This document shows, piece after piece, positions 277-35,762 of a stretch of DNA of 39,938 bases (position 1 is the first letter of the stretch; the number at the start of each line of letters is the position of its first letter). The DNA is from Gimesia sp. (GTDB lineage Bacteria; Planctomycetota; Planctomycetia; Planctomycetales; Planctomycetaceae), in contig NZ_JAVJSQ010000013.1 of NCBI RefSeq assembly GCF_040219335.1, positions 1 to 39,938 on the forward strand, in the 5' to 3' direction. A model generated the notes under the pieces. That model made no database searches and had not been told where the DNA came from. It saw only the letters and a list, made by a program, of their open reading frames with translations. A program made the position numbers and the translations under genes.

Positions 277-468
277 TTGGAATACATGGTTTTAACGTTC
301 GTCTCTGTCGCCCTGTTGCTGACTGTCGTCTCATTCATCAAGGAACGGCGGTTGCGGCTGGCGCTGCAGGGAATTCTCAGACACCTGATTCAACGCTGGA
401 GGGCACATGGAAAAACCGACTCTACCCATCACACTAACATTGATCCTGCTGACCGGAGCCGGCTGTAG
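277..468 (+). CDS. Small single-span membrane protein, unknown function
   Basis: A 63-residue protein. I place the start at TTG 277 because AAAGGAG at 264-270 lies 6 bp upstream; ATG 286 is an alternative. The open frame extends further upstream, but only through the terminator hairpin. The sequence is one hydrophobic span (about residues 4-18, VLTFVSVALLLTVVSF) followed by a basic stretch (IKERRLRLALQ, LIQRWR), so an N-out/C-in membrane peptide is likely. Its 3' end overlaps the next gene (407) by about 60 bp, a sign of tight co-expression. The function is unknown; position as the first gene of the cluster is the only clue. Confidence 0.5.
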   Translation: MEYMVLTFVSVALLLTVVSFIKERRLRLALQGILRHLIQRWRAHGKTDSTHHTNIDPADRSRL

Positions 469-979
469 TTCCGACGAAAACAGCCGTGTGGCCGAACTGG
501 CCACACGGCAGCTGGAGCGCCAGGCTGAGCAGAACCAACGGATGACGGAACTCCAGCAGGAAGTTGCCTCCGGTTCACGGGAACTGGTGGAAGCAGACGC
601 CAGATCCCGGCAGGAGATGGTCTCGCTGCAGCGCGAGATTCAGACCGAGCGAAACGAGATCGGATACCAGCGGGACCAGCTGGAGGCAGAACGCCGTGAA
701 ATTGCTGACAGCAGAAATCGTGACCCGATCATTGCGGCGGCGATCTCCAGGGTGACCATGGTGGTCATTAGCCTGCTGCCCCTGTTGATCTGCTGGTTGC
801 TGCTCAGGCAGAAAATCGAACCCGCTAACGATCAGCAAATGACAGAGCTGCTGCTAGATGACCTGGTCTCAGCAGAACCGTGGCTGATGCCACCTGCAAA
901 TACAAATCCGGACAAACCACGGCTGACGGATTTCCCGCAGCCCCCCGATCCTGAAAATCCCACAGAAAGGAGCACATGA
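407..979 (+). CDS. Lipoprotein-like coiled-coil membrane protein
   Basis: 190 residues, ATG 407 preceded by TGGAGG. The N-terminus is a hydrophobic signal ending in a lipobox-like LLTGAGC (Cys20), so it is probably lipidated. Residues about 25-105 are a charged, Gln/Glu/Arg-rich heptad region (RQLERQAEQNQRM, LQREIQTERNEI) predicted to form a long coiled coil, followed by one strong transmembrane span (about 107-133) and a Pro-rich, acidic cytoplasmic tail. The stop is one base before the DUF1257 ATG, so the two are operonic. A membrane tether or scaffold for the soluble cluster proteins is a reasonable inference, but no catalytic motif is visible. I cannot assign a named family. Confidence 0.8.
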   Translation: MEKPTLPITLTLILLTGAGCSSDENSRVAELATRQLERQAEQNQRMTELQQEVASGSRELVEADARSRQEMVSLQREIQTERNEIGYQRDQLEAERREIADSRNRDPIIAAAISRVTMVVISLLPLLICWLLLRQKIEPANDQQMTELLLDDLVSAEPWLMPPANTNPDKPRLTDFPQPPDPENPTERST

Positions 980-980
980 A

Positions 981-1349
981 ATGTCACATATTGTCACCAT
1001 CCAAACGGAAGTCCGCGACGCGGAAGCACTGGGCCTAGCCTGCCGTCGACTCGAGCTGGGAGAACCCATTCAAGAGACTGTCCCGCTGTTTAGCGGGGAA
1101 GCCACTGGCTACGCGGTCCGTCTCCCTGACTGGCGGTATCCTGTCGTCTTTGACGTCGAACAGGGCCGGGTCCGCTACGACAACTTTGAAGGCCGCTGGG
1201 GTGAGCCGTCTCACCTCAATCGGCTGCTTCAATCCTACGGCGTGGAAAAATGCCGCTTGGAAGCGCGCCGCAAGGGACATTCCGTCCTAGAAAACCAGCT
1301 CAGCGACGGTTCCATCAAACTCACCATTCAGATCGGAGAGGGCCAGTGA
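981..1349 (+). CDS. DUF1257 family protein (Ycf35-like)
   Basis: 122 residues, ATG 981 with AAAGGAG 8 bp upstream. The N-terminal MSHIVTIQTEVRD is the hallmark of DUF1257, the family that includes the plastid and cyanobacterial ORF Ycf35 (usual start MSHFSxIxTxIxD). Length is normal for the family. The biochemical function is unknown. In cyanobacteria this family is often next to DUF2997 and a related AAA ATPase (Ycf46) also occurs; here both are in the same cluster, which argues that the three act together. Its TGA overlaps the GTG of the next gene (GTGA), indicating translational coupling. Confidence 0.85.
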   Translation: MSHIVTIQTEVRDAEALGLACRRLELGEPIQETVPLFSGEATGYAVRLPDWRYPVVFDVEQGRVRYDNFEGRWGEPSHLNRLLQSYGVEKCRLEARRKGHSVLENQLSDGSIKLTIQIGEGQ

Positions 1350-1540
1350 AAACCATTGAAATCATCATTTCTACCGACGGTCAGTCCCGGATCGAAACCC
1401 GCGGCTTCACCGGTTCCCGCTGCCGGGACGCCAGCCGGATTCTGGAATCAGCCCTGGGAAAAGTCTCCTCAGAGCAATTAACCGCCGAATACCACCAGAG
1501 CGTCCAACATCACCCCAACCAACTCAAACAGGAGAATTAG
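1346..1540 (+). CDS. DUF2997 family protein
   Basis: 64 residues, GTG 1346 overlapping the DUF1257 stop by 4 bases, with GGAGAGGG about 8 bp upstream. The pattern KTIEIIISTDGQSRIETRGFTGSRCRDAS followed by a short helix (RILESALGK) and LTAEYHQ (shown here in pieces) is that of DUF2997: an N-terminal three-stranded sheet with a Gly-rich turn and a conserved Cys. It is a small, presumably cytosolic partner of the DUF1257 protein. Function unknown. The open frame extends 5' of the GTG but there it only shadows DUF1257. Confidence 0.8.
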   Translation: MKTIEIIISTDGQSRIETRGFTGSRCRDASRILESALGKVSSEQLTAEYHQSVQHHPNQLKQEN

Positions 1541-1599
1541 CTTTCAATTCACAACACATACAGGAATTACCTGAACGAATTGACGAAGCCCCCTCACGG

Positions 1600-2205
1600 G
1601 TGCGTGTGCTGGTGGTCGTCGAAGGGACACACGACATCAAGTTTCTGAGACGCATCTCAGCGCTCCTCCATTCAGCGCATCCTGCACTGCCTGATCTTGC
1701 CGCAATGGAACGTAATAGAGAACTTATCTTCCTGCCGATCAGTGGACATCCTCAAGCTTGGATTAGACGACTGTCGCCACTCAATCTGCCAGAGTTTCAT
1801 TTGTACGATCGCGAGCAGTCACCGGTTACGGAACAACGTCTGGAGACCGTCGACAGGATCAACCAACGCTCTCGTTGCCGCGGCATGTTGACGCAGAAAC
1901 GGAGTCTGGAGAACTATCTGCATCCCCACTCGATTCAGGTTATCACTAATATTCCACTGGAATTCGATGACCATGCTTGTGTGGCAACTCTGGCAGCACA
2001 ACAAGTCTTTGAGAGCAGTCATGGAAAACCCACCTGGCAACGGCTCACTCGTCGTGCTCAGGTGCGACTAACGAATCGGGCCAAGCGCTGGCTCAATACC
2101 AGTGCGGTCGAACAAATGACGGTCCCCCTGCTGCAGGAACGCGATCCGGACGGGGAAATCATCTCCTGGCTGGAGACGATCCGCCAACTGGCTGAGACCG
2201 CTTAA
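1600..2205 (+). CDS. TOPRIM-domain protein (OLD-nuclease-like)
   Basis: 201 residues if started at GTG 1600. The TOPRIM signature is clear: VLVVVEGTHDIKFL with Glu8, then a second acidic motif FHLYDRE (Asp70, Glu72), then KRSLENYLHP (Lys100-Arg101, Glu104), the order seen in OLD-family/RecR-type TOPRIM folds that bind Mg2+ and act on DNA or nucleotides. Only the TOPRIM half is present; there is no ATPase domain in the same chain, but an AAA+ ATPase follows 44 bp downstream. The start is uncertain: AGGAG at 1530-1534 overlaps the DUF2997 stop, yet the frame downstream offers no ATG/GTG/TTG until 1600, so the protein may begin about 20 residues earlier at a non-standard codon. Nuclease activity is inferred, not shown. 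Confidence 0.75.
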   Translation: MRVLVVVEGTHDIKFLRRISALLHSAHPALPDLAAMERNRELIFLPISGHPQAWIRRLSPLNLPEFHLYDREQSPVTEQRLETVDRINQRSRCRGMLTQKRSLENYLHPHSIQVITNIPLEFDDHACVATLAAQQVFESSHGKPTWQRLTRRAQVRLTNRAKRWLNTSAVEQMTVPLLQERDPDGEIISWLETIRQLAETA

Positions 2206-2249
2206 GCACACTTCACACACCTATTTCTTTCAACCTAAGAGGAACACTT

Positions 2250-3746
2250 ATGTTACTAACCGAACGACTGGCGGAGAACGTACGCGCCTGTTTTACCGGC
2301 ATCTGGATTCAGAGCCACGAACATGACGAGGCGTTGTTGGAAATCACCCGCCTTTGTCACAGCGAAGACTGGGGGCTGCTCTCCTGGGACATTGACCGGG
2401 GGCTGCAGGGAACAGAGGTCGTTGGAGACAGCGATAACTCCTACCCCGATCCCCTTACAGCTATCCACAGTCTCAACATCCAGGCCGATTCAGATCGGCC
2501 CACGCTGCTGGTCCTCAAGAATTTCCACCGGTTCATCAATTCCCCGGAAATCATCCAGGCCCTGACGCGACAGATCGGTCTGGGAAAGCAAACCCGAACC
2601 TTCGTGATCATTCTATCCAGTCTGGTCCAGATTCCCCCGGAACTGGAAAAACAGTTCGTCTGCCTGGAACACGATCTTCCCGATCGGAGCCAGTTGGAAG
2701 AGATCGCTCACAGCATTGCCACGGAACCCGGCGAATTGCCAGAGGGAATGGAACAGGAGCGTGTCCTGGACGCCGCCTGTGGACTGACTCGCTATGAAGC
2801 AGAGGGAGCCTTTAGTCTCTCCCTGGTACGTCATGGACGCATCGACGTCTCCGTCGTATTGGAACTGAAGGCACAGACACTGCTGAAAAGTGGTCTGTTA
2901 ACGCTTCACAGCGGTTCTGAGTCATTTGAAGACCTGGGCGGCCTGGAATCACTCAAGGCCTTTTGCCGGCGTGCGCTGCGTCCCAGATCACAGGAATCAA
3001 CCCATGTGCGTCCACGGGGCGTGCTGCTGTTGGGAGTTCCCGGGACCGGGAAAAGTGCCTTCGCCAAAGCACTGGGAAAAGAGACCGGAAGAGCCACACT
3101 GACACTCGACGTGGGAGCCCTGATGGGTTCTCTAGTCGGCCAGACAGAGGAGCGAACAAGAAGGGCGATCCGAATCGTTGATGCGATGCAACCCGCCGTC
3201 CTGTTCATCGACGAAATCGAAAAGGGTCTGAGCGGAGCAGCCTCATCCGGACAGTCTGACAGTGGTGTTTCCACACGCATGCTGGGGACACTTTTAAGCT
3301 GGCTGAACGACCATACTTCAGACGTATTTGTCGTTTGTACCGCCAACGACATCTCTAAACTGCCCCCGGAACTGATCCGTGCCGAACGCTTTGACGGTCT
3401 CTTCTTTCTGGATCTGCCCGGAGATTCACAGAAGCAGGCGATCTGGAACATCTACCGGGAACAGTATGGACTCACAGAGGAGCAGAAGTTGCCCGAAGAC
3501 CGGCATTGGACCGGATCGGAAATCAGGGCTTGCTGTCGCCTGGCAGCCCTGCTGGATGTCCCGTTAACCCAGGCTGCTGAAAACGTGGTCCCCGTGGCCG
3601 TCACAGCCGCAGAATCAGTGGCTCGACTCAGACGCTGGGCCAGCAACCGCTGCCTGTCTGCAGAGCAGCCGGGCGTCTTTGTTCACGGAGAGCGGTCGGA
3701 AGGCCGAGAGCAGCGCAAACTCTCCCGTGATCCCCGCAGAAACTAA
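2250..3746 (+). CDS. AAA+ ATPase, Ycf46/FtsH-like
   Basis: 498 residues, ATG 2250 after AAGAGGA. The N-terminal about 220 residues match the Ycf46 layout: a P-loop-like fold without its own Walker A (FTGIWIQSHEHDEAL; LLVLKNFHRF). Then comes a classical AAA module: FEDLGGLESLKAF, Walker A GVPGTGKS (262-269), Walker B VLFIDEIEK (317-325), sensor-1 VVCTAND and the arginine-finger region ELIRAERFDG. The tail after residue about 470 is basic. A hexameric ATPase that remodels or unfolds protein is the expected activity. Being in a cluster with a Ubl, E1, E2 and JAB it could process Ubl-modified targets; that link is inference from context. Confidence 0.88.
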   Translation: MLLTERLAENVRACFTGIWIQSHEHDEALLEITRLCHSEDWGLLSWDIDRGLQGTEVVGDSDNSYPDPLTAIHSLNIQADSDRPTLLVLKNFHRFINSPEIIQALTRQIGLGKQTRTFVIILSSLVQIPPELEKQFVCLEHDLPDRSQLEEIAHSIATEPGELPEGMEQERVLDAACGLTRYEAEGAFSLSLVRHGRIDVSVVLELKAQTLLKSGLLTLHSGSESFEDLGGLESLKAFCRRALRPRSQESTHVRPRGVLLLGVPGTGKSAFAKALGKETGRATLTLDVGALMGSLVGQTEERTRRAIRIVDAMQPAVLFIDEIEKGLSGAASSGQSDSGVSTRMLGTLLSWLNDHTSDVFVVCTANDISKLPPELIRAERFDGLFFLDLPGDSQKQAIWNIYREQYGLTEEQKLPEDRHWTGSEIRACCRLAALLDVPLTQAAENVVPVAVTAAESVARLRRWASNRCLSAEQPGVFVHGERSEGREQRKLSRDPRRN

Positions 3747-3771
3747 ACCTGACTCTAATCAAGGAGAAACG

Positions 3772-4713
3772 ATGACTATGGCTACGATAGAAGAAGTGGA
3801 AACCCACCACGATCCCATCGACCGACTTCGGGCGACCATGTGTGCCACGCGGGTCAGTTTTGAATGGTTTGGTACCAGGAAGTCACTCACACGCGACCAG
3901 AAGGCCCAGGCCGCTGAATCGTTTGGGGCGGAAGGGGCGTTCCTGAGTGCTGGTAAGAAGCTGCTGGATACGGGACATCCCCGTTTCCGGGCCGTGAGTG
4001 CCGTCCGCAACCAGGTACGCAAATACTGGACCTCGGTCAGTCTCCCTTTCCCGGAACCGGGAATCCGCTTATTGCGGCAGGATACACTAACCGCCTTCCA
4101 GGAGCAGATGCATCGATTTACGGATGAACTGGCTGAGACCGTCGCGGAACTGGATGAACAATATCTGTCCATGAAATCGGCGGCCCGGGAGCGTCTGGGC
4201 AGTCTGTTCAATGACGATGATTACCCCACAACGCTGGTCGGGCTATTCGAAGTGACCTGGGAATTCCCCAGTATCGAACCGCCGAACTATCTCAGACAGC
4301 TCAATCCCGAACTCTACGAACAAGAGTGCCAGCGCGTGCAGTCGCGGTTTGAAGAGGCAGTCCGACTGGCGGAGGACGCCTTTCTGGATGAGTTGTCGAA
4401 GCTGGTGTCACATCTCACAGATCGCTTGAGTGGGCAGGCCGACGGTCGTCCTAAGGTCTTCCGGGATTCGGCCATCGGGAACCTGCACGAGTTCTTTGGT
4501 CGCTTCCGGTCGCTGAATGTCCGCTCCAACGAACAGTTGGATGCGCTCGTCTCTCAGTGTCAAAACATTGTAGAAGGCATACAGCCCCAGGAACTGAGAA
4601 AACGGGACGCCCTCCGGCAGCAGGTTGCCTCCGATTTGTCTGGCGTTCAGGCTGTCTTGGATGGCCTGCTGGTTGATCGTCCGCGACGTCAGATCATGCG
4701 AATTCCGAAGTAA
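3772..4713 (+). CDS. Conserved-looking alpha-helical protein, unknown function
   Basis: 313 residues from ATG 3772, chosen because AAGGAG at 3761-3766 is ideally spaced; the open frame reaches back to 3679 inside the AAA gene. It is soluble, mostly helical and charged, without signal peptide or membrane span. Recognisable landmarks are RKSLTRDQKAQAAESF, a Pro-rich LPFPEPGIRL, WEFPSIEPPNYLRQL and a C-terminal LDGLLVDRPRR. Cys is nearly absent and no nucleotide- or metal-binding motif is seen. It lies between the AAA ATPase and a small protein in the same tight operon (25 bp and 9 bp gaps), so a substrate adaptor or regulatory subunit for the ATPase is possible. I do not recognise a named family with confidence. 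Confidence 0.8.
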   Translation: MTMATIEEVETHHDPIDRLRATMCATRVSFEWFGTRKSLTRDQKAQAAESFGAEGAFLSAGKKLLDTGHPRFRAVSAVRNQVRKYWTSVSLPFPEPGIRLLRQDTLTAFQEQMHRFTDELAETVAELDEQYLSMKSAARERLGSLFNDDDYPTTLVGLFEVTWEFPSIEPPNYLRQLNPELYEQECQRVQSRFEEAVRLAEDAFLDELSKLVSHLTDRLSGQADGRPKVFRDSAIGNLHEFFGRFRSLNVRSNEQLDALVSQCQNIVEGIQPQELRKRDALRQQVASDLSGVQAVLDGLLVDRPRRQIMRIPK

Positions 4714-4722
4714 GGAGGCCGC

Positions 4723-4968
4723 ATGCAACTCATCATCACAGCGGAAGGGCAAGTCCGCTGCATTTACGCGGAAGCCATTGATCTGGCCGCCCTCGGTCGA
4801 CTGCGCATCTCGCGGGGCTCGTTCGTCGAACCGAATGCGGCTGGTCAATGGATCGTGGATCTGTCCCCCGTCCAGGGACCGCGGCTGGGGCCGTTCGCTC
4901 AACGGAGTGCGGCCCTGCAGTCAGAAATCGACTGGCTGGAACAGCACTGGCTCTCTCCCAGCTCTTGA
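4723..4968 (+). CDS. Small conserved hypothetical protein
   Basis: 81 residues, ATG 4723 with AAGGAGG just upstream. The sequence opens with a beta-strand pair (LIITAEGQVRCIYAEA), then RLRISRGSFVEPN, and ends WLEQHWL; it looks like a compact alpha/beta cytosolic protein. It is the last gene before the terminator at 4991. No catalytic motif is visible and no function can be given. It sits on the same transcript as the AAA ATPase and the helical protein at 3772. Confidence 0.7.
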   Translation: MQLIITAEGQVRCIYAEAIDLAALGRLRISRGSFVEPNAAGQWIVDLSPVQGPRLGPFAQRSAALQSEIDWLEQHWLSPSS

Positions 4969-4990
4969 ACATGTAATTTTCCCACACTGT

Positions 4991-5035
4991 GCCCCGGTCT
5001 TGCAGAGTTGCTTCTGCAGGGCCGGGGCTTTTTTT
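4991..5035 (+). terminator. Intrinsic terminator inside the cluster
   Basis: GCCCCGG at 4991-4997 pairs with CCGGGGC at 5021-5027, with an inner GCAG/CTGC pairing, followed by an uninterrupted run of eight T. This is a strong textbook terminator. It splits the AAA/TOPRIM unit (277-4968) from the Ubl unit that starts at 5065. Confidence 0.85.
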
Positions 5036-5064
5036 ATTGAACCCTTGTTTTTAGGAGACATTAG

Positions 5065-5280
5065 ATGAAACAGTCAGACCTGAATCGGGCCGTCGCCCTG
5101 GCCACCGGCGAGACAATCGCCACCGTTAAACGCCTGGGCTTCCTACTGGCAGAGCCCCATGAAACCGTTGATCCGGATTCAGAAACGTCGGGACCGCTGG
5201 TCATCGACTGGGACGAACTGGAAAACCAGCGAATGGCTCCACAGACAGAGGGATTGAATCATGTACCGTCATGGGTGTGA
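5065..5280 (+). CDS. Small acidic hypothetical protein
   Basis: 71 residues, ATG 5065 preceded by TTTTTAGGAGA. It starts MKQSDLNRAVALATGET followed by a helix (VKRLGFLLAEP) that resembles the DNA-binding helix region of small IHF/HU-like or HTH proteins, then a Pro/Asp-rich tail ending LVIDWDELENQR. No family can be named. It is the first gene after the 4991 terminator and its 3' end overlaps the next small gene (5261) by 20 bp. Confidence 0.65.
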   Translation: MKQSDLNRAVALATGETIATVKRLGFLLAEPHETVDPDSETSGPLVIDWDELENQRMAPQTEGLNHVPSWV

Positions 5281-5434
5281 TTCCGATCTCAAGGGATTTC
5301 ACTGTCTCAGTCAGGCAGATGCTCCCTTCCACTCAAATCGACTGCAGATGCTCCGTAGTGGGCGGCAACGGGGACGACGCGTCGTTAAAAGTCAACGTCG
5401 AAAAAGGCGTCGCAAACGAAAGTCGCTTGGATAA
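5261..5434 (+). CDS. Small Arg/Lys-rich protein
   Basis: 57 residues, ATG 5261 with AGAGGG about 8 bp upstream, overlapping the end of the 5065 gene. The N-terminal half (MYRHGCDSDLKGFHCLSQAD) contains two Cys and His; the C-terminal 25 residues are almost wholly basic (RQRGRRVVKSQRRKRRRKRK). Such a tail suggests nucleic-acid or ribosome contact. A second open frame over the same bases (from GTG 5271) has no sensible composition or ribosome site, so I prefer this one. Being so short, it needs comparative support. Confidence 0.5.
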   Translation: MYRHGCDSDLKGFHCLSQADAPFHSNRLQMLRSGRQRGRRVVKSQRRKRRRKRKSLG

Positions 5435-5485
5435 AGCATTACTTCTTTTTATTACATCTCCAAATCAATTCCAGAAAGGAATGCT

Positions 5486-5710
5486 ATGAAAGTTTTACTG
5501 ATTAATAACGACGGTGGCGGATTCGCAGACTACATCGAAGTCGCCACAGGTACCACGGTCTCTCAACTGTTCGAACAACGCATGGCGGATGCGAACGCCT
5601 CGGACTACTTGATCCGGGTCAATCGTCAGCCGTGCCCTCCCGATCAGACGTTAGAAGACGGGGACCGGATTTCGATCACTCCGACTAAAATCGAAGGGGC
5701 GAAAAGCTAG
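5486..5710 (+). CDS. Ubiquitin-like beta-grasp protein (MoaD/ThiS-like)
   Basis: 74 residues, ATG 5486 with AGAAAGGA upstream. The pattern is that of a ThiS/MoaD/ubiquitin beta-grasp: strand MKVLLINND, strand YIEVATG, helix [12 protein letters not shown], strand [10 protein letters not shown] and a last strand [25 protein letters not shown] is the typical C-terminal hairpin of MoaD/ThiS/TGS-type folds. Unlike ubiquitin or ThiS, the chain does not end in Gly-Gly but in KIEGAKS, so either one Gly serves after trimming or the tail is used differently. Three genes downstream encode an E2-RING, a JAB protease and an E1, so this is the presumed modifier of that pathway. Confidence 0.82.
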
Positions 5711-5740
5711 CCGTCCCTATCAGTAATGTTTTGTCTAAGA

Positions 5741-5777
5741 CAGGCTGCCGGGATCACGGTCCCGGCAGCCTGTTTTC
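5741..5777 (+). terminator. Intrinsic terminator between Ubl and E2-RING genes
   Basis: A perfect 13-bp stem (5741-5753 with 5760-5772, core GGCTGCCGGGA) and a 6-nt loop are followed by TTTTCT. It would stop or attenuate the Ubl transcript, allowing more Ubl than enzyme to be made, as is common for modifier/enzyme pairs. The downstream gene starts 23 bp further on, so read-through is a likely way to express it unless a promoter is hidden in the stem region. Confidence 0.8.
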
Positions 5778-5799
5778 TATTAGTGGGAGTAAACGAACT

Positions 5800-6816
5800 A
5801 TGAAACAAAGCCTCGAAAAGGTCTGGCGGATGGCCAGTCTCATTGAGAAACAACTCAGCTCACTGGGAAGTGAGATAAACACAGGGCTACCAGAATCAGC
5901 CTGGTTAAGCTGTCTGCGGTTGATCCGCATGCGACAACAGGCACAGGAACGAGGTTGGTTTCGTGCGTCCTCAAAGCTGGAGCGGGGACTGTCAGCAGAG
6001 GTGTTTCAGCTGACGCGGCAACTGGTAACGTTGCAGCAGGAACTGGAGTCAGTCACTGCTGAAAAACCTCTCCCTGCGATACGCACTATCTACGAAGACC
6101 TGCTGGCCCTGGAAGAGGAGTTTTGTGAATCTAACATCAATCTCAAGGCTAAGTCGATTTCGGTGGTCACAGAGCCAATTGTGCTGGAAGGCGTTTATCT
6201 GGGAGCGTTTGAGATACGGCTGGAGTTTACAGACCTGAATTCAGACGCTCCCTTTCAGTACCAGGTATTTGCTCAAGATCCGCAGTCACCGATCACCGAT
6301 GACGCTGTCACGCATCCGCATGTGCAGTCTGATATCGTCTGTGAAGGGGACGCCCGTGTGCCTATTAAACGTTCCCTAGAACAGGGGCGACTGCTGGACT
6401 TTTTCGTGCTGGTGTCGCGCTTGTTGCACACCTACAACCCGGAAAGCCCCTATGTCGCCCTCAGCGACTGGCACAGTGCAGAATGCAGTGATTGTGCGGA
6501 TGTCGTGACCACAGATGAGCAGACTCACTGCACCAGTTGCGAAAACCGCTTGTGTCGGCAATGTGCCAATCGCTGTACCGACTGTAGTTCCTCATTTTGC
6601 CACGACTGTTCGACCCGCTGTGAAATCTGCCGTGATGACTGTTGTGAATCCTGCCTGAAAGAGTGTGGACTTTGTGGTTCCAGCTGTTGTTCAAATTGCC
6701 TCGATATTGAAGAAAGGTGCCCGATCTGTGAAACACAGGAAGACGAAGAAACGTACGAACCGGACCAGGAAACCACATCGCCGGAGACGGTCCCCCCTGC
6801 CGGCACTCCGCTTTAG
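5800..6816 (+). CDS. E2-like (UBC-fold) protein fused to tandem-Cys RING-like region
   Basis: 338 residues from ATG 5800, chosen for GGGAG 9-10 bp upstream; a TTG at 5731 in the same frame lies before the terminator. Residues 60-110 are helical. Residues about 120-225 follow the ubiquitin-conjugating (E2) order: [12 protein letters not shown] (the YxGGxF strand), a QYQVFAQD strand, [14 protein letters not shown] where HPH (172-174) and Cys181 match the HPN...IC active-site block, then helices ending [11 protein letters not shown]. Residues 229-310 hold about 20 Cys in CxxC pairs, four near-identical 15-18-residue units ([48 protein letters not shown]) then CPIC: a RING/treble-clef-like zinc array. 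Probable role: accept the Ubl from the E1 and transfer it. The tail is acidic. E2 assignment is by motif, not by alignment. Confidence 0.78.
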
Positions 6817-7396
6817 CCCAAACGCCTGGGCCAAACTGCTGTTCCTACGTGATTATGGTGATACTGAAGTTGGCGGATTTGGAATCGCAGCCTCGACGGA
6901 TTTGCTGCTGGTCCAGGACCTGCAACTCGTGAAACAGACCTGCTCACTGGTCCATGTTGCCTTCGATAATGAAGCGGTGGCGAATTTCTTTGATGATCAG
7001 GTCGATGCAGGACTCCGCCCGGAGCAGTTTGGTCGAATCTGGATCCATACTCACCCGGGTGCCTGTCCAGAGCCCAGCCCGACTGATGAAGCGACCTTTG
7101 AACGTGTCTTTGGTCGATCTGACTGGGCCGTGATGTTCATCCTGGCGCGGCAGGGGCGATCCTATGCGCGATTGCGGATGAATACCGGTCCCACGATTGA
7201 CTGTGAGATCTCAGTCAGGCGGGATTATTCAGAGCCCTTTCCCGGTTGTGAACCCGAAAACTGGGAAGGGGAATATTTAACGAACGTGCATCCCGAACAA
7301 CGCCAACCCAGCAGGCCGTTATCGGCGTTCGACGATTTTGACTGGGATGCGGACTGGTTTTTCGATGAACCTGATTTGGAAGGAGATTTATTGTGA
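6728..7396 (+). CDS. JAB/JAMM metalloprotease (deubiquitinase-like)
   Basis: About 222 residues. The zinc JAMM motif is complete: Glu47 (TEVGGFGI), [14 protein letters not shown] giving His107-x-His109-x10-Asp120 with Ser117. JAMM enzymes cleave isopeptide or C-terminal bonds of ubiquitin-like proteins; in bacterial Ubl operons they mature the Ubl or remove it. The start is uncertain: no ATG exists, candidates are GTG 6665 and GTG 6728 (AAAGG about 11 bp upstream), both inside the zinc-finger gene, so the two overlap out of frame by 89 bp or more. A start at 6728 gives a very basic N-terminal tail ([14 protein letters not shown]). The acidic C-terminus ([19 protein letters not shown]) runs into the E1 through a GTGA overlap. 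Confidence 0.88.
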
Positions 7397-8052
7397 CAAA
7401 TACAACGATAGATCGTTTTCAGAGACAGAGTGGACTGGTCCCTACAGAGAGACTATCTCAGATTTCGGTGACTGTCATCGGTGTGGGAGCCATCGGACGA
7501 CAGGTGGCCCTGCAGCTGGCGGCGATCGGGACACCGCGGATTCAGCTTGTTGATTTTGATACGGTCGAATTGACCAATATCACGACGCAGGTATATCGGA
7601 GACAGGATCTGGGATCAGCTAAAGTCGAAGCAACGGCCAGGGCAATCCAGGAACTCGATGATTCGATTCAGGTGGAGACAGTTTCGGATCGGTTTCGTGC
7701 CTCCATAAGTACAGGAGAGGCTGTCTTCTGCTGTGTGGATTCGATCTCTGCCCGAGCAGCGATTTGGCGATCAATTAGCAGAAAATGTGCGTTCTGGACA
7801 GATGGCAGAATGCTGGGAGAAACGATCCGAGTGCTGACTGCCACAAAGGACTCAGGAATAAATCAGTATTCAGAGACACTCTTTCCTCAACCCCAGGCAC
7901 AAATTGGAAGTTGTACCTCACGCAGTACTGTGTATGCAGCCAGCATTGCAGCAGGATTCATGGTGCATCAGTTTTGTCGCTGGCTGCGTGGGATATCCAT
8001 AGATCACGATATGTCTCTAAATCTATTGGCAGGCGAAACTGTAGTTAGCTGA
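7393..8052 (+). CDS. E1-like ThiF/MoeB adenylating enzyme
   Basis: 219 residues, GTG 7393 overlapping the JAB stop by 4 bases, AAGGAG 8 bp upstream. The Rossmann ATP motif [12 protein letters not shown] (G30-x-G32-x-x-G35), the acidic strand end QLVDFDTVE (Asp54, Asp56), [20 protein letters not shown] (Asn62, Arg70, Lys77) and the N-terminal RFQRQ arginine are the ThiF/E1 signature. It lacks the CxxC zinc pairs of MoeB. Cys174 in GSCTSRST is the best candidate for a thioester cysteine. At 219 residues it is a minimal adenylation domain without rhodanese or UFD domains. It would adenylate the C-terminus of the Ubl at 5486. It is the last gene before the terminator at 8106. Confidence 0.88.
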
Positions 8053-8144: not shown

Positions 8145-8269
8145 GCTATCAGGATATTTTAATCATCATGGAGCGCCCAATGAGACCAGTATGACTACCA
8201 GTTCTATAGAGCTTGTTGTCTGACCTTGTGCCCAACTCTGTACCAGTTAGAATGTTAGAGAGCCAAGGT

Positions 8270-8301
8270 AAAATCATCCCTGGCGCGCCAGGGATGATTT
8301 T
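8270..8301. repeat. Perfect 32-bp palindrome at the 3' end of orfB
   Basis: AAAATCATCCCTGGCG is followed directly by its reverse complement, centred on GGCGCGCC with A4 on one side and T4-T6 on the other. It overlaps the last codons and stop of orfB and could work as a bidirectional terminator that shields the IS from outside transcription. Confidence 0.75.
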
Positions 8302-8873
8302 TTCGCGAACTCCACTGGGGTCTGATTTCCCAAGGAGCTGTGCGGGCGGGTTTTCGATATAGTCCAGCCGCCACTGGTCAACTTGTTCCTGAGCGTCTGC
8401 CAGGCTTAGAAACCAATGCCGGTTTAAACATTCCTGGCAAACCCGCCCGCTGAACGATTCAATATACGCATTATCGGTCGGTTTTCCCAGCCGACTGAAA
8501 TCCAGAGTCACTTTGTTGAAGTAAGCCCACCAGTCCAGACTCTTTCAAATGAACTCGGGACCGTTATCCACACGGATTGACTGAGGACAGCCTCGAGCCT
8601 CTTTAACGCGATCCAGAGCTGCCCCCACATCATCTCCAGTCAGCCGTGTTCCTACCAGTATGGCCAGACTCTCACGACTAAAGTTATCGACTAACGCACA
8701 CGAATGGTAGCCAGTTCGCGCAGTCGCATCGGCAGCTCGGCCCGTTCATCATGAACACTCTGGTAACGGTGACTGGCTCGCGGAAAGCCGAGCACCTGGC
8801 AGGCACGCCGCTCACTGACTTCATAGCAAACCTGAAGTTCCTGCACCAGAGTACGACGACGAGCGGGCCTCAC
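8274..8873 (-). pseudogene. IS3 orfB (DDE integrase), deleted and frameshifted
   Basis: The N-terminal part (8691-8873) encodes VRPARRRTLVQELQVCYEVSERRACQVLGFPR and ends ATIRVR. The next bases jump straight to the catalytic region (LVDNFSRESLAI), so about 100 codons, including the first catalytic Asp, are lost. Then comes DNGPEFI with the second Asp, broken by an altered codon near 8548, and TDNAYIESFSGRVCQECL with the catalytic Glu. The 3' end in the correct frame reads SLGNQTPVEFAKKSSLARQG and stops at 8274-8276, inside the palindrome 8270-8301. It cannot make an active transposase. Confidence 0.8.
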
Positions 8874-9136
8874 AGCTTTTTTTTGAGAACGTCTTGAAGC
8901 ATGCTCTTATCCAGGCTCAGGTCAGCCACCAGTTGTTTGAGCTTCCGGTTTTCCTCTTCCAACTGCTTCAGTCTACGGACTTCAGCGACGCCCAGACCGG
9001 CGTATTTCTTCTTCCAGCGATAAAAGGTCTGTTCGGTGATCCCCATCTTCCTAACGATCTCCGCCACCGCAGTACCGGACTCATGCTGCCGCAAAGAAAA
9101 TGCAATCTGCTCTTCCGAATATCGTTTCCGTTTCAT
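8870..9136 (-). CDS. IS3 orfA (HTH transposase subunit)
   Basis: 88 residues with the IS3 orfA pattern: MKRKRYSEEQIAFSLRQHESG, an HTH (VAEIVRKMGITEQTFYRWKKKYAGL) and a leucine-zipper stretch (LKQLEEENRKLKQLVADLSLDKSML). It ends at a run of eight A on the minus strand (8877-8884), the kind of slippery tract used for -1 frameshifting to make OrfAB; the orfB frame starts at GTG 8873. OrfA itself is intact, but its partner is dead. Confidence 0.85.
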   Translation of the reverse strand: MKRKRYSEEQIAFSLRQHESGTAVAEIVRKMGITEQTFYRWKKKYAGLGVAEVRRLKQLEEENRKLKQLVADLSLDKSMLQDVLKKKL

Positions 9137-10468: not shown

Positions 10469-10882
10469 ATGAATCGTTTTTTTGTACTCACAGTACTACT
10501 TGTATTTACTGGTCTGAACGGTTTCTTTATAACCCAATCGATTGCAGCTTTCGGAGATTGTAACGATGCTCTCAATGAAGCAAACGCTAGCTGCACTGGA
10601 GTAGTTGATTGTAGCGACGGACAATGTTTTTTAATCAATACTTCTTGTACTGGCGGGTATACATGTAACCCTGATCCGTGCACTGCCGCCAAATCGGACA
10701 AAATAAAAAAATTTGGCGCATGTGAAAACACCTACTGGGACTATGGATGTTTTCATTGTTCATTTTATTACTGTGCTGAAGTGATTAAATATCAATCCGA
10801 GGATTCCTTTGGTGAATGTCAGTTTGCTCGTTGCAGGGGACTACTGGGTCAAAGTAATGCATGCGTGCCTTCTTCGCCTTAA
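10469..10882 (+). CDS. Small Cys-rich secreted protein
   Basis: 137 residues, ATG 10469 with AAAGGAAGAG upstream; the frame is open further 5' but overlaps the DUF1573 gene. A signal peptide (FFVLTVLLVFTGLNGFFITQSIAAFG) is followed by a mature part of about 110 residues with 14 cysteines (e.g. CSDGQCFLINTSC, YTCNPDPC, CFHCSFYYC). The even number of Cys suggests seven disulfides, or metal binding outside the membrane. Such small Cys-rich proteins next to DUF1573 genes are, to my knowledge, a recurrent planctomycete pair, but no function is known. Confidence 0.75.
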   Translation: MNRFFVLTVLLVFTGLNGFFITQSIAAFGDCNDALNEANASCTGVVDCSDGQCFLINTSCTGGYTCNPDPCTAAKSDKIKKFGACENTYWDYGCFHCSFYYCAEVIKYQSEDSFGECQFARCRGLLGQSNACVPSSP

Positions 10883-11067
10883 CGCCAGGAAAATAGATCT
10901 TTTTCGGTCATCAGCGCCCCAGATTTATTCAAATTCTCTTTTCTAAACTTACTGTGTTTCATGTTTGTATTTTAATTGATTGAGGATACAAAAAAGCCAA
11001 TGTACCTTATTCTTTCACCATGAATCTGAAAAATGGTTCAAGTTCATTTGAGAAACGAAAGAGCTTG

Positions 11068-12273
11068 ATGATTTCTTTCAATTTTAAAAATGGTACTTTA
11101 GTTATACTGCTAATTCTGATCACATCGGCAGCGACTAATGGAGTCAATGACGACATACTGGGAGTCCTTGCCGTTGGTTATACTCGAAATCGAGAGTCTT
11201 TTCCCGTTTTCGATTGTCGATTTGAATGGAGAGATGCTAAAGCGGCAACAATTGAAGATGCCTTGGCAGGCAAATTTATCAGTGAAGCCAAGCCCCTTCA
11301 GGGGCACTGGCTTGTTGATGAGGAAAATGTAAGATATGAACTGATGTGTACACCTGAAATGAGGAAAGAAGCTGAGGATGCAACTGAAAATCCGCAGATA
11401 ACAGAACAAAATGAGAAGTTTGAAATACCAATCCCCTGCGCAGATAATCTGTATTTGCGAAATAAATCCTATCTACTTTCATATGGCCCTCTCACATTGG
11501 CGGCCAATCTATTTGGTCCCAGCGATCCTAGAACTTCTGGAGTCCGAATTACTCCTTTCAATCCGGACATAATGGGAACAGAAGAGCGTTCCAGCCCAGA
11601 CCGCTTTCTAAGAGCGTGTTTGAGTGGTCGATTTGTCGGCCATTTTGATGGAACAGAAAAAATTAACGGCGTTGATGTCCTGGCAGTGACTATCGGAGAA
11701 AGGCCAGGCCCAGATGGAAAACTGGTGGGACATAAGTATGGCTTTGATCCAGACCGCGGACACCTTCCGGTTTATATTTCTGACAGAAGTCCCCAGTCAG
11801 GCAAGTTATTATATGAAGCATATATCACTGAAGCTCGTGAATTTTCGGGAGAACGCTGGTTCCCAACCCGTGTTGTTTTGATCTTAGCTCCTGAATCTGA
11901 ACCTCCATATCAACTCAAAGAACTTAAGGTCTCGAAACTTGATGTTGATTTAAAGCCATCAATAGATCGATTTAATCTGGAACTTGCATCAGGCACTCAG
12001 GTGAATGTCATTGGTCGAACGGAGTGGACTTTTCTTAAAGAAGATGAATCGTTTACGGTAAACGATTTGCCAGCGTTACATCAACGTTGCATCGCGTATG
12101 GTCAGGCTTTTTTAGAAAGGGAAAAAAAAGCCAAAGAAGCAGGAAATCAACCAGCAGTTGAACGAACAGCTACAATCAAGTATCTAATTATTGGAAATGG
12201 ATGTATCCTGGTAATTGTAGCAATACTATTTTTCCTCATGTGGAAGAGAAGACGTAACAAAAACAATGAATAG
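11068..12273 (+). CDS. Secreted, C-terminally membrane-anchored protein, unknown function
   Basis: 401 residues from ATG 11068 (GAAAGAG upstream, and the resulting N-terminus is a clean signal peptide, VILLILITSAATNG); ATG 11020 in the same frame is the alternative start. The body is beta-rich and soluble (FECRF-like region, VDVLAVTIGERPGPDGKLVGHKYGFDPDRGHLPVYISD, FSGERWFPTRVVLI), reminiscent of LolA-like/outer-membrane carrier folds found in planctomycete secreted proteins. It ends with one membrane span (YLIIGNGCILVIVAILFFLMW) and a basic RRRNK stop. The stop overlaps the start of the glycosyltransferase at 12266 by 8 bp, so the two are translationally coupled. Function not assignable. Confidence 0.75.
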   Translation: MISFNFKNGTLVILLILITSAATNGVNDDILGVLAVGYTRNRESFPVFDCRFEWRDAKAATIEDALAGKFISEAKPLQGHWLVDEENVRYELMCTPEMRKEAEDATENPQITEQNEKFEIPIPCADNLYLRNKSYLLSYGPLTLAANLFGPSDPRTSGVRITPFNPDIMGTEERSSPDRFLRACLSGRFVGHFDGTEKINGVDVLAVTIGERPGPDGKLVGHKYGFDPDRGHLPVYISDRSPQSGKLLYEAYITEAREFSGERWFPTRVVLILAPESEPPYQLKELKVSKLDVDLKPSIDRFNLELASGTQVNVIGRTEWTFLKEDESFTVNDLPALHQRCIAYGQAFLEREKKAKEAGNQPAVERTATIKYLIIGNGCILVIVAILFFLMWKRRRNKNNE

Positions 12274-20456: not shown

Positions 20457-23400
20457 ATGTTCAATCGAAATAACGTTATTTATCTGATTTTAAGATCTTT
20501 TTATTGTTGGATTATTCTTCTCAGTTCTCCTGATTTTGAGACGACCTGCCTGCGAGCAGATACAGGCAGTCAGAAGCCAGAATCCAGGGTAGAGAAAGCG
20601 AGAAGTAACCCTGCCACTAAGACGTCGATGTCCCTGGCAAGCATTAAAGATTCTTTTCTTGCTCACGATGCTGATGAGAATGGTCAGTTATCCAGATCAG
20701 AATTTCTCAAATCGTTTCCTGAACAGAATCAACCCGTCGCTCAAAGAGACTTTAAGCTATTCAATCGTGATGGTGATCAGGCTCTGTCATTTGAGGAATA
20801 CCGTACAATTCCAGGTCTCGTTCCTAAACGATTTCGTGGTTCGATCACTCATTCTTTGGCTGCTTATCTTGAAAAACAGACAGACGTCATTAATCAGAAC
20901 TGGAAGAAGTGGGACACGGATGGAAACGACCGCCTGTCCCCTGAGGAATTCAAGTCAGCGAAACTTGAAGATCAGATCCCAGGCATACCCCAGACCACTC
21001 TGAAAGATTGGGACCGGGATGACGATGGAACCGTCAGCCGGGAGGACTGCCGTCATGTACTGGAAGCGGCTTACGGATTGAGACGCCTGAATGGTCAGCC
21101 CCTTGAGCTACCGACCGGTCAAGTAGTTTACTGGTGGCATTTCAAGGATCTGGATCGAGACCGGAATGATCAGCTGACTTTTAAGGAATTTCTAGCCTAT
21201 TACAAACGCTTCGGTGAAGAAGAAACGAAACAACGTTTTAAGAAGGGGGATACCAATCAGGATGAAATTCTATCTCTCAAAGAGTGGGCAGAAATGCCCG
21301 GTTTTTTACTCGATCCAATCTCAGAATTTCGCAACTTGGATCGGAATCTCGATGCCCAGGTAGATCCGCAGGAACTGCTGGAGGGGATCGCTCCGTTTCT
21401 GCGTCCGCTGGCACAGTTTACCTTTCCGGGTTTTGACCGGGATCAGGATGGAACGCTTTCATTAGATGAGTACCGACTGACGCTGGTGGCGAACCGGGTG
21501 GAAAACTGGGATGTCACTTCCCGGGATACGGATCATGACGGTCGCCTGAGCCTGCAGGAAATGGCCTGGATCCCCGGCCTGGAATTGAGTCTGTTGCGTC
21601 AGGATTATTTTCAACGGCTGGATCAGAATCAGAACGGCTACCTGGAACTCGAGGAGTTCAAAGTGTCGGTCAACGGTGGAAAAGTCCCCCCCGAGATAGC
21701 CTTGAAAGCTGGTTTTTACAGCCGGGACGCCAATCGGGACAGGCAAGTGACCGAAGATGAATTCGTGGCCTCGTTCCCAGAAGAGCAGCAGGCGGGAGCC
21801 AGACGCGACTTTCATCTGTTTAACCGTGACGGGAATAAACTCCTCTCGTTTGAAGAGTATCGCACGATCGCCGGTCTGATCCCTGTCGCTTTACGTCAGG
21901 GACTGCCGCATCCTCTGCAACCTCTGGTTGAACAGCAGCTGGCTCTGATCGAAAAACACTGGCAGCAGTGGGATCAGGATAGTAACGACAGTTTGTCCCC
22001 TGAGGAATTTGAAGGAGCAAAGATTCACGAAACGATTTCCGGATTACCACCTGCAGACATAAAAGCATGGGACCGGAATAACGACGGGCAAATCAGCAAG
22101 GATGACTGTCACCGGGTAATCGAAGCCGCTTATGGACTCCGGCGCCTCGATGGCCAGCCTTTGTACCTTCCCTCGGGACGCATCGTATATTGGTGGCATT
22201 TTAAAAATCTGGACCGAGATCACAACGAACAACTGACCTTAGAAGAGTTTCAAAGTTACTACCGGAGATATGGAGAAGAGAAAGGGAAGCAAAGGTTTAC
22301 CGATGGAGACTCTGACCAGAATCAGACGATCTCACTTCAGGAATGGACAGAGATGCCAGGTCTGTTGCTCGACCCAATTTCTGAATTTCAACTAATGGAT
22401 CGCAACCTGGACACCTTTGTGGATCAGGATGAGCTTGTCGAGCAGACCTCAAAATGGTTAGTCCCATTATCTCGGTATACCTTTCCAGGGTTTGACCTTG
22501 ATCGTGACGGAAAACTCTCTCTTGACGAATATCGTATGACCATGCCGGTCAATAAGTTGGAGAACTGGGCAGTTACTTCACGTGATTCGGATTTTGATGG
22601 GCGTTTGAGCCTGAATGAGATGGCCTGGACTCCCGGACTGGAGTTAAGCCTCTTAAGACATGAGTACTTTCGACGCCTTGACCTCAACCAGAATGATTTT
22701 CTCGAACTAAATGAATATCAGTTTTCCATCGACAGTAGTCGGGTACCCGTGGAGATTGTACTACAGGTTGCTTTTGCTTCCAGAGATACTGACCAGGATG
22801 GCCGGTTAAATGAAACGGAGTATTTGGCAGCCTTTCCCCAAGAGAAGCAGGCAGAAGCAAAACGTGATTTCCAGCTGTTTAATCTGGACGGTGATGATCA
22901 ATTATCTGCTCAGGAATTTCGAACGATACCCGGTCAGGTTCCATTGGCTTTACGTGGGGCTTTGCCGCATCCACTGACTCCGATGATTGAAAAGCAGATA
23001 GCTCTGATTGAAGAAAACTGGGAGCAGTGGGATCAGGATGGGGATGGCAATCTGTCTGCGAAAGAATATCCATCCACAACATTGAGTACACACCTGCCAG
23101 GCATCGAATCTCTTGAGCTGCGCGAGTGGGATCATAATTCGGACGGTACCATTGACCTGGAAGAATGTCGAGGGGTGATAACAGCCGCCTATGGATTGCG
23201 ACGTCTGGATGGCCAGCCTCTTCAGCTTCCCTCGGGGCTTGTTGTCTACTGGTGGCATTTCAAAGATCTGGACCGCGATCACAGTGATGGCTTATCCCTG
23301 GCAGAGTTTCAGACCTATTACAACCGATTTGGTGAAGAGGATGCAAAAACGCGTTTTCAGAAAGGGGATACGAATCAGGATGAAATACTCTCACTTAAAG

Positions 23401-34889: not shown

Positions 34890-35762
34890 TCAGTGTTCTT
34901 TTGTGTCAATGGCTGTTCTGCTCGCCTGTTGGAGCGGAGCGGAAGCAGGCGAGCAGAACAGCTTCGCTTCCGGTACCGGGGCTCTGTAGCCCAGTGAACT
35001 GTGCGGCCTGATGGAGTTGTAATCTCTTCTCCAGCGTTCGATCAGCACTTTGGCTTCCCATAACGTATCGAAGATTTCACCGTTGAGCAATTCATCTCTC
35101 AGTTTTCCGTTGAAGGATTCGATGTAACCATTCTCCCAGGGACTGCCTGGTTCAATGAACAAGGTTTTCACTTCAACCCTGCGAAGCCAGTCTCGAACCC
35201 GCTCTGCCGTGAACTCGGGACCATTATCACTGCGAATATGGTCCGGGACTCCACGACGCACAAACAGGTCACTGAGGCGTTCCAGTACACTTTCGCTGTT
35301 CAATCTCCTTTCCACATCAATACACAGGCACTCCCTGGTATATTCATCAAGCACAGTCAGCATCCGGAAGGCCCGGCCGTCGTGAGTCCGGCAATGCACA
35401 AAATCGTAGCTCCAGACATGATCCTGATGCCGGGGACGTAAACGGACACAGGAACCATCATTGAACCACAGTCGGCGACGTTTCGGCTGTTTTTGTGGGA
35501 CTTTCAGGCCTTCCTGTCGCCAGAGCCGTTCCACTCGCTTGTGATTCACCTTCCAGCCTCGCTGTCGCAACAGTTCTGTCACACGACGGTAACCATAACG
35601 ACCGTACTGGCTCGCCAGATCAATGATCTCCCGAACCAGCCGGGGTTCATCTGAGGGAACCACAGGCTGCCTCCGTTGCGTGGAACGGGATTGTCCCAGG
35701 ACACGACAGGCCCGGCGTTCCGAGACCTGATCATGTCCCAGGGAATCTCTTACGAAATTCAC
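34890..35762 (-). CDS. IS3 orfB (DDE transposase)
   Basis: 290 residues from GTG 35762, but the frame is open up to the frameshift site at 35792-35798 (LLSPSKRSKAVNFVRD...), so it is normally made as an OrfAB fusion. HTH_21 region SERRACRVLGQSRSTQRR; rve core with the DDE triad: DHVWSYDFVHCR (Asp), IRSDNGPEFTAERV (Asp), GSPWENGYIESFNGKLRDELL (Glu). The C-terminus, after HSSLGYRAPVPEA, is encoded by a stem-loop (34912-34962). Full length and undamaged, so the element may be active. Confidence 0.9.
   Translation of the reverse strand: MNFVRDSLGHDQVSERRACRVLGQSRSTQRRQPVVPSDEPRLVREIIDLASQYGRYGYRRVTELLRQRGWKVNHKRVERLWRQEGLKVPQKQPKRRRLWFNDGSCVRLRPRHQDHVWSYDFVHCRTHDGRAFRMLTVLDEYTRECLCIDVERRLNSESVLERLSDLFVRRGVPDHIRSDNGPEFTAERVRDWLRRVEVKTLFIEPGSPWENGYIESFNGKLRDELLNGEIFDTLWEAKVLIERWRRDYNSIRPHSSLGYRAPVPEAKLFCSPASAPLQQASRTAIDTKEH
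34912..34962. repeat. Perfect 17-bp inverted repeat at 3' end of IS3 orfB
   Basis: GCTGTTCTGCTCGCCTG (34912-34928) and its exact reverse complement (34946-34962) flank a 17-nt loop. It encodes the last residues of orfB. Like the palindrome at 8270-8301 it sits at the 3' edge of the transposase gene and may act as a terminator or mRNA stabiliser. Confidence 0.75.

Follow-up and report, generated by a model that had tools for sequence, protein, structure and literature searches.

A predicted ubiquitin-like conjugation cassette with an E2-like cysteine-ladder protein in Planctomycetaceae, with relatives in integrative elements and on phage contigs

Four adjacent genes for a ubiquitin-like pathway

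The stretch of DNA analysed here (39,938 nucleotides, Gimesia sp.; hereafter the window) is the entire contig C13 of a genome of 7.93 Mb, with Gimesia and other Planctomycetaceae as its close named relatives. Reading of the open reading frames (ORFs) in the window located four plus-strand genes between positions 5486 and 8052, in the order ubiquitin-like protein (Ubl), E2-like protein, JAB protease and E1-like enzyme, at the positions given in an initial annotation that had read them as a compact Ubl conjugation pathway with a free minimal E1:

5486..5710, plus strand: Ubl, a beta-grasp (ThiS-like) protein of 74 residues (Pfam ThiS, 15-row alignment, dN/dS)
5800..6816, plus strand: E2-like protein of 338 residues, with N-terminal helices at 5-85, a predicted UBC-like domain at about 94-224 and ten CxxC pairs at 229-310 (AlphaFold2 models, Foldseek, VIA, invariant residues, CxxC count)
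6728..7396, start uncertain, plus strand: JAB/JAMM protease (invariant motif, PDB profile matches, start candidates)
7393..8052, plus strand: minimal E1-like adenylating enzyme of 219 residues, GTG start (Pfam ThiF, invariant residues, PDB profile matches)

All four genes are under purifying selection, with ratios of nonsynonymous to synonymous change (dN/dS), calculated for the window against other copies, of 0.02-0.08 for Ubl, 0.18-0.29 for E2, 0.09-0.15 for JAB and 0.15-0.25 for E1. The two gene overlaps described previously were found: JAB and E1 share 4 nt (GTGA, 7393-7396), and the JAB frame, open from 6665 to 7396, extends into the E2 gene, which ends at 6816. Residues common to JAB and its relatives start at about 6806; the most likely JAB start is GTG 6728, which follows AAGAAAGG and lies within the E2 gene.

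The Ubl passes the Pfam ThiS cut-off (25.4 vs 22.5 bits), and against solved structures its profile gave one chance match (E 0.75). Gly71-Ala72 is invariant in 15 cellular copies, one of them from a contig labelled Chloroflexota, and the tail that follows varies from 2 to 35 residues. Since an invariant pair is followed by a variable tail, trimming by JAB is likely, and the mature Ubl would probably end at residue 72 or 71, an end that JAB would expose in copies with a tail. Among nine phage-contig copies, seven have Gly-Ala (two ending there), one Gly-Gly and one Ala-Gly, while on two further phage contigs (L121 and L122) tandem Ubl units lie in one protein, joined after KVEGA or KVQGA. The initial annotation mentioned neither the Gly-Ala end nor three features presented below: the mobile-element setting, the versions on phage contigs and the exchange of the cassette for a clamp-like gene.

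The E2-like frame is open from TTG 5731, and ATG 5800 is the start that aligns with relatives. The motif H172-P-H174-x6-C181 is invariant in the alignment (14/14), with no invariant His after C181, and HPH-x6-C is present in 85 of 85 members (the window protein and 84 of 120 homologues listed); variants occur on phage contigs, namely HPN in L119 and a spacing of x7 in L117. The UBC-like domain was modelled alone because the full-length model gave mixed coiled-coil and E2 rows in VIA. The resulting AlphaFold2 model is confident, and all 50 PDB matches listed are E2 entries, the best at an E-value of only 0.010. The UBC fold proposed earlier for this protein is thus predicted by both the model and the structure searches. 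On the basis of the domain model and the motif in all 85 members, the protein is likely a new type of E2 enzyme whose tail is predicted to bind zinc: its modelled UBC fold and its HPN-like motif followed by a Cys are those of the E2/UBC superfamily, for which a thioester step can be predicted.

The tail itself bears on the proposal of an E2-RING fusion, of which the E2 part stood and the RING part did not. Ten CxxC pairs are present in 78 of the 85 members, nine in five and eight in two, with a spacing of 11,4,3,4,3,4,3,4,6 in 62; judged from these residues, the tail is a periodic ladder of CxxC pairs without RING spacing (CxxC-x11-CxxC-x4-CxxC-x3...). The RING consensus places 2-3 residues between ligand pairs two and three and four or more before pair four, usually with a His. 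In a Pfam scan, 0/85 members matched a RING or E2 family at E<=0.1. The best PDB sequence matches of the array are the MID1 and RUN/FYVE fingers (weak, E 0.003-0.013); points on the RING side are TRAF3 at E 0.064, RAG1 and PRT1, which are weaker still, and the automatic name 'RING-type domain-containing' of some close UniRef homologues.

The motifs claimed for the E2, JAB and E1 proteins were all recovered and are invariant in relatives. In JAB (residues counted from 6797), E24, H84-T-H86, S94 and D97 are invariant in 13/13, giving the Glu and HxH-x10-D by which its sequence is assigned to the JAMM proteases, and HTHP...S..D is present in 12/12 phage-contig copies read. The protein lies below the Pfam Prok-JAB cut-off (18.6 vs 25 bits), 9 of the 11 PDB matches of its profile at E<=1 are Rpn11-type (best E 0.045), and PHROGs returned a single weak tail-protein match. 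The E1 has G30-x-G-x-x-G35, D54/D56 and C174 invariant in 14/14, with C174-T175 among the invariant residues, and passes the Pfam ThiF cut-off (95.9 vs 28.1 bits); by its GxGxxG, Asp pair and profile score, its sequence belongs to the E1/ThiF superfamily. PDB matches of the E1 profile are PaaA, MccB, ThiF, MoeB and BubCD.

Distribution, phage-contig versions and mobile setting

The co-occurrence of the four genes was determined in 99 related genomes, with profile limits of 1e-3 for Ubl, 1e-8 for JAB, 1e-15 for E2 and 1e-30 for E1. The profiles found 44 places for Ubl, 48 for E2, 58 for JAB and 61 for E1. These form 71 clusters, of which 39 are complete and in the order Ubl>E2>JAB>E1, so that the check on co-occurrence proposed earlier came out, like that on the UBC fold, in favour of the pathway; the others are 12 JAB-E1 pairs, 8 E1 alone and 12 other partials. 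Many partial clusters lie at contig ends, as expected because of repeats in draft genomes, and a few, on complete chromosomes, do not. A complete cassette is present in 20 genomes, any part in 27 and no part in 72, with up to six copies per genome. In a sample of 392 genomes of the phylum, the E2 profile matched in 30, with 14 matches of full length and 16 of the cysteine tail alone.

Scans of IMG/VR gave 13 distinct contigs. In 10 of them the complete set is present in the usual order; of the other three, all at a contig end, two have three of the genes and one has Ubl alone. Contig L108 and the 207,857-base contig L110 have in common a terminase, an ATPase, the cassette, RNase H and a gene that looks VWA-like by eye and whose PHROG bears the label HNH endonuclease. 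A terminase is present on L115 too, a DNA polymerase on L111 and an SbcC-like gene on L121; for the remaining contigs the viral label is the IMG/VR assignment. L116 carries the complete planctomycete backbone and may represent an integrated element. In an unrooted E1 tree of 41 rows, 29 of 30 cellular copies and L116 form one group (support 98/98); the one remaining cellular copy, from L051, groups with L112, a phage contig (88/92), and the rest of the copies from phage contigs are scattered outside. Searches of a plasmid collection with E2, and of PHROGs with Ubl and E2, gave no match.

L121 (66 kb) and L122 (80 kb) have a second E1-like gene 5' of the main cassette. Distant E1 proteins also occur in named phages (82 records matched, those listed at 28-30% identity). 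Three of these phages are bajarodcaudo virus 1 (L124), Flavobacterium phage FpV4 (L125) and Xanthomonas phage PhiXhv-12 (L126); two of them have a JAMM-like HSHN...SGTD gene directly 5' of the distant E1, and in the third E1 is preceded by a 140-residue protein ending in GG and an 892-residue protein that has ten CxxC. None of the three yielded an HPH/HPN-C motif.

The four genes are real, and the span first given for the system was too short: the recurring module is 407 to 8052. Its G+C is 0.549, vs 0.469 for the rest of the contig. The cassette is preceded by the backbone genes b981, c1600 (not in every locus), that of the AAA ATPase and h3769, and then by those of two small proteins; a407 is listed with them:

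407..979, plus strand: a407, 190 residues, signal/transmembrane and coiled-coil-like by eye; recurs upstream in several loci; no confident family
981..1349, plus strand: b981, 122 residues, weakly DUF1257-like (18.7 bits, cut-off 22.2)
1600..2205, plus strand: c1600, 201 residues, optional (some loci), TOPRIM-like by eye only; Pfam match at chance level
2250..3746, plus strand: AAA ATPase, 498 residues, Cdc48-like AAA domain (Pfam AAA 96.6 bits)
3772..4713, frame open from TTG 3679, plus strand: h3769, about 313 residues, helical by eye, without family match
4723..4968, plus strand: s4723, small backbone protein of 81 residues (dN/dS 0.08-0.22)
5065..5280, plus strand: s5065, small backbone protein of 71 residues just 5' of an exchangeable slot; no Pfam match

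The AAA ATPase matches TIGR01243 CDC48 at 85.9 bits, far below the cut-off, has Cdc48/VCP as top PDB matches, and matches phrog_8638 at E 1.5e-85 and PADLOC IetA at 1.1e-13. We considered it as a cassette-dedicated Cdc48-like unfoldase and set this aside, since it also occurs without the cassette; it is a backbone gene of the mobile element. We take it to resemble plastid Ycf46, and b981 presumably resembles Ycf35, the DUF1257 matches of b981 being sub-threshold (relatives: 20.2 and 17.8 bits in two of three scanned). The ORF at 5271-5489 was rejected as probably not a gene, with a dN/dS of 1.6 in one of two comparisons; the second gave 0.29 with nearly no synonymous change.

A phage-type integrase lies within a few kb of E1 in six loci (by Pfam in L043, L044 and L046, by tblastn in L008, L041 and L045), and among 21 loci scanned for tRNAs a tRNA-Ser gene adjoins the integrase in five of these six. 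L048 carries a serine-recombinase-like gene related to the window's own Pfam-matched serine recombinase, which has Resolvase and Recombinase domains (37135-38346, plus strand). The window also holds an rve-type transposase (34890-35762, minus strand), a pair that resembles IS3 by eye (8149-9136) and a 1599-residue protein with many EF-hand calcium-binding repeats (20457-25256, plus strand). Where the AAA backbone is absent, DUF932 and DUF2958 proteins lie 5' of the cassette (L046:9578-10315, plus strand; L051:7431-8300, minus strand). In L038 (4213-7553), a second copy of b981 and a 703-residue ORF on the reverse strand interrupt b981, an apparent insertion. In L039, E1 (4777-5433, minus strand) and c1600 (10623-11225, minus strand) are 62% and 68% identical to the window, and the other module genes 84-94%; these identities suggest recombination within the module.

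Exchange with a DnaN-like gene and possible functions

Gene s5065 is found in most cassette loci and also in loci of a second, clamp-type kind. In L011, L093 and L094, an s5065-like gene lies 3' of E1. In the slot after s5065, 9 of 10 fetched AAA loci without the cassette (L082-L087, L089-L091) have a clamp-like gene of about 450 residues. Its product shares 27% identity across 157 residues (E 3e-5) with DnaN from genome G181. The gene for that DnaN directly follows dnaA, and the protein passes Pfam's three beta-clamp domains. The profile of the clamp-like gene matches the dnaN genes of G181 and G339, and sliding clamps or fusions with clamps account for 19 of its 20 PDB matches at E<=1 (best 0.0045); single copies gave no match to Pfam clamp families. 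By these matches, the slot gene is related in sequence to the DnaN beta sliding clamp.

Among 84 AAA loci of the 99 genomes (at least 50% identity; 84 of 107 rows, of which 23 partial or below 40% identity were left out and a few of those kept are partial), Ubl follows in 29, the clamp-like gene in 30, both in 0 and neither in 25. For the clamp-like gene, 54 of 66 rows were used, with 12 weak or fragment rows left out. The probability of zero overlap by chance is 5.7e-8 on the assumption of independent loci, which holds only in part. Clamp-like genes have no Ubl within 12 kb, although nine genomes hold both. Distances from the AAA gene are 1.7-4.7 kb for Ubl and 1.6-5.3 kb for the clamp, and on a 27-protein AAA tree the distribution of the two states requires four changes, a number that the well-supported branches alone already force. 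Twelve of the 25 loci with neither gene were fetched (L088, L097-L107); the 11 that were read contain no Ubl or clamp gene, and among the remaining 13 several stop close to a contig end. The cassette is thus an exchangeable part of mobile elements. Nothing points to its function more strongly than the exchange with the clamp-like gene, which hints at targets linked to replication but does not prove them.

We consider the cassette, with a probability of about 75%, to be a complete pathway of Ubl conjugation and de-conjugation with relatives in integrative elements and on phage contigs; every catalytic step, the zinc binding and the role are predicted from directly observed sequences, motifs, gene order, mobility and exchange. 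JAB would likely trim the Ubl precursor after the conserved Gly-Ala, and E1 would adenylate the trimmed end. The Ubl would then reach Cys181 of the E2-like protein, either through Cys174 of E1 or without this intermediate, and the nearby HPH motif would position the attacking amine of a target. A separate E3 would not be needed, its place being taken by the predicted zinc ladder on E2, which would also select targets; JAB would in addition take the tag off. Because the cassette is exchangeable with a DnaN-related gene on the same mobile backbone, it likely serves the element's own upkeep or its conflict with the host or rivals, rather than cell housekeeping. A more specific version, which we regard as quite improbable, is that phages and elements tag the host clamp or replisome to recruit or evict it instead of carrying their own clamp; this would be a prokaryotic counterpart of PCNA ubiquitination, with the E2 zinc ladder as a built-in E3.

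Other explanations have to be weighed against this pathway. A sulfur-carrier or small-molecule pathway, in which a ThiS-like Ubl, a ThiF-like E1 and JAB would give a thiolated product and the 5800 protein would be an unrelated zinc protein, agrees with ThiS being the sole above-cut-off Pfam match of Ubl, with ThiF/MoeB as the best NCBIfam match of E1 and with PaaA and MccB as the best PDB matches of its profile. The E2-like protein with HPH/HPN-C between Ubl and JAB in complete cassettes makes it very improbable, and the neighbours that can be named are mobile-element genes, although biosynthetic genes were not searched for in the neighbourhoods. Anti-phage defence like Bil, Bub or type II CBASS, carried as cargo of integrative elements, seems unlikely. 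PADLOC models of E1-E2 (Cap2) and BilD do match E1, JAB models match the protease and IetA models the AAA ATPase, and the cassette is sporadic, multi-copy and on integrative elements; on the other hand, no CD-NTase, BilA, BilB or BilC model matched the ten module proteins to which the scan was confined (for E1, among the best 25 matches), phage contigs carry the cassette itself next to genes for terminase, polymerase and recombination, and in elements it alternates with the DnaN-like gene.

The exchange might also mean less than we propose, and the cassette and the clamp-like gene might be unrelated passengers in a common insertion-prone slot. The loci with neither gene, 25 of 84, would fit such a slot, but its shared position, the similar distance from the AAA gene, the zero co-occurrence and at least four switches suggest alternatives, without proof, and we hold the passenger explanation to be rather doubtful. 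If the conjugation pathway is true, phages and mobile elements carry a Ubl system whose E2 family is absent from Pfam, whose modifier is of the Gly-Ala type and whose multi-zinc tail stands in for a separate E3; the tandem Ubls of phages would then offer a natural counterpart to polyubiquitin genes. The trade-off with the DnaN-like gene provides a concrete, testable clue to the targets.

Comparison with known systems

The kind of system is already known from bacterial Ubl operons, an archaeal Ub/E1/E2/RING/Rpn11 operon, Bil, Bub and CBASS. We found no literature account of an E2-CxxC ladder fusion, a Gly-Ala modifier or a phage-borne four-gene set, in a search that left out most subscription journals. 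Burroughs 2011 reportedly predicted bacterial operons with E1, E2, JAB, Ubl and RING, and is the main threat to the novelty of the E2-CxxC family. PRTRC is another mobile, ThiF-related cassette; TIGR03736 PRTRC_ThiF matches E1 at 37.5 bits vs a cut-off of 144.75, with no other PRTRC model among the matches listed, which places the present cassette outside that type.

With Bil, Bub and CBASS Cap2/Cap3 the cassette shares the logic of E1, E2, protease and Ubl. Cap2 fuses E1 and E2, and to our knowledge none of these systems has a CxxC array on E2. The Cap3 model of type II CBASS scores 16.8 bits vs a cut-off of 200, and no CD-NTase model matched among the ten module proteins scanned. The E1 profile matches BubCD at 46 bits, in a match that begins at residue 183 of 458. 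The BilD model matches E1 at 23.9 bits, and the cassette differs from Bil in both BilA and BilB: BilA has two domains whereas the Ubl has one, of 74 residues, and BilB has Cys-Glu-His-His with a His after the Cys (PMC11354881), while no invariant His follows C181 here.

Operon type 6d of Iyer and Aravind comprises a Ub-like protein, JAB, E1, E2 and a helical protein (PMC1779556). As described there, its E2 lacks an upstream His and has a His after the Cys, whereas HPH is invariant upstream here, so that by sequence the cassette is not of type 6d. The type 6d JAB has an extra N-terminal domain, while the common part of the present JAB begins about 20 residues before the catalytic Glu, and the ten CxxC pairs on E2 are a feature of the present cassette unlike type 6d as described there. 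The Ub/E1/E2/srfp-RING/Rpn11 operon of Caldiarchaeum subterraneum has in common with the cassette its compactness, a pro-Ub with a tail and an Rpn11-type JAMM, for which the match of our JAB is weak; it has a separate small RING protein and a di-glycine end, in contrast to the absence of RING, the 219-residue E1 and the Gly-Ala found here (PMC5654768). Overall, we predict that the four-gene set is a cousin, in bacteria and viruses, of the eukaryotic-type ubiquitin system.

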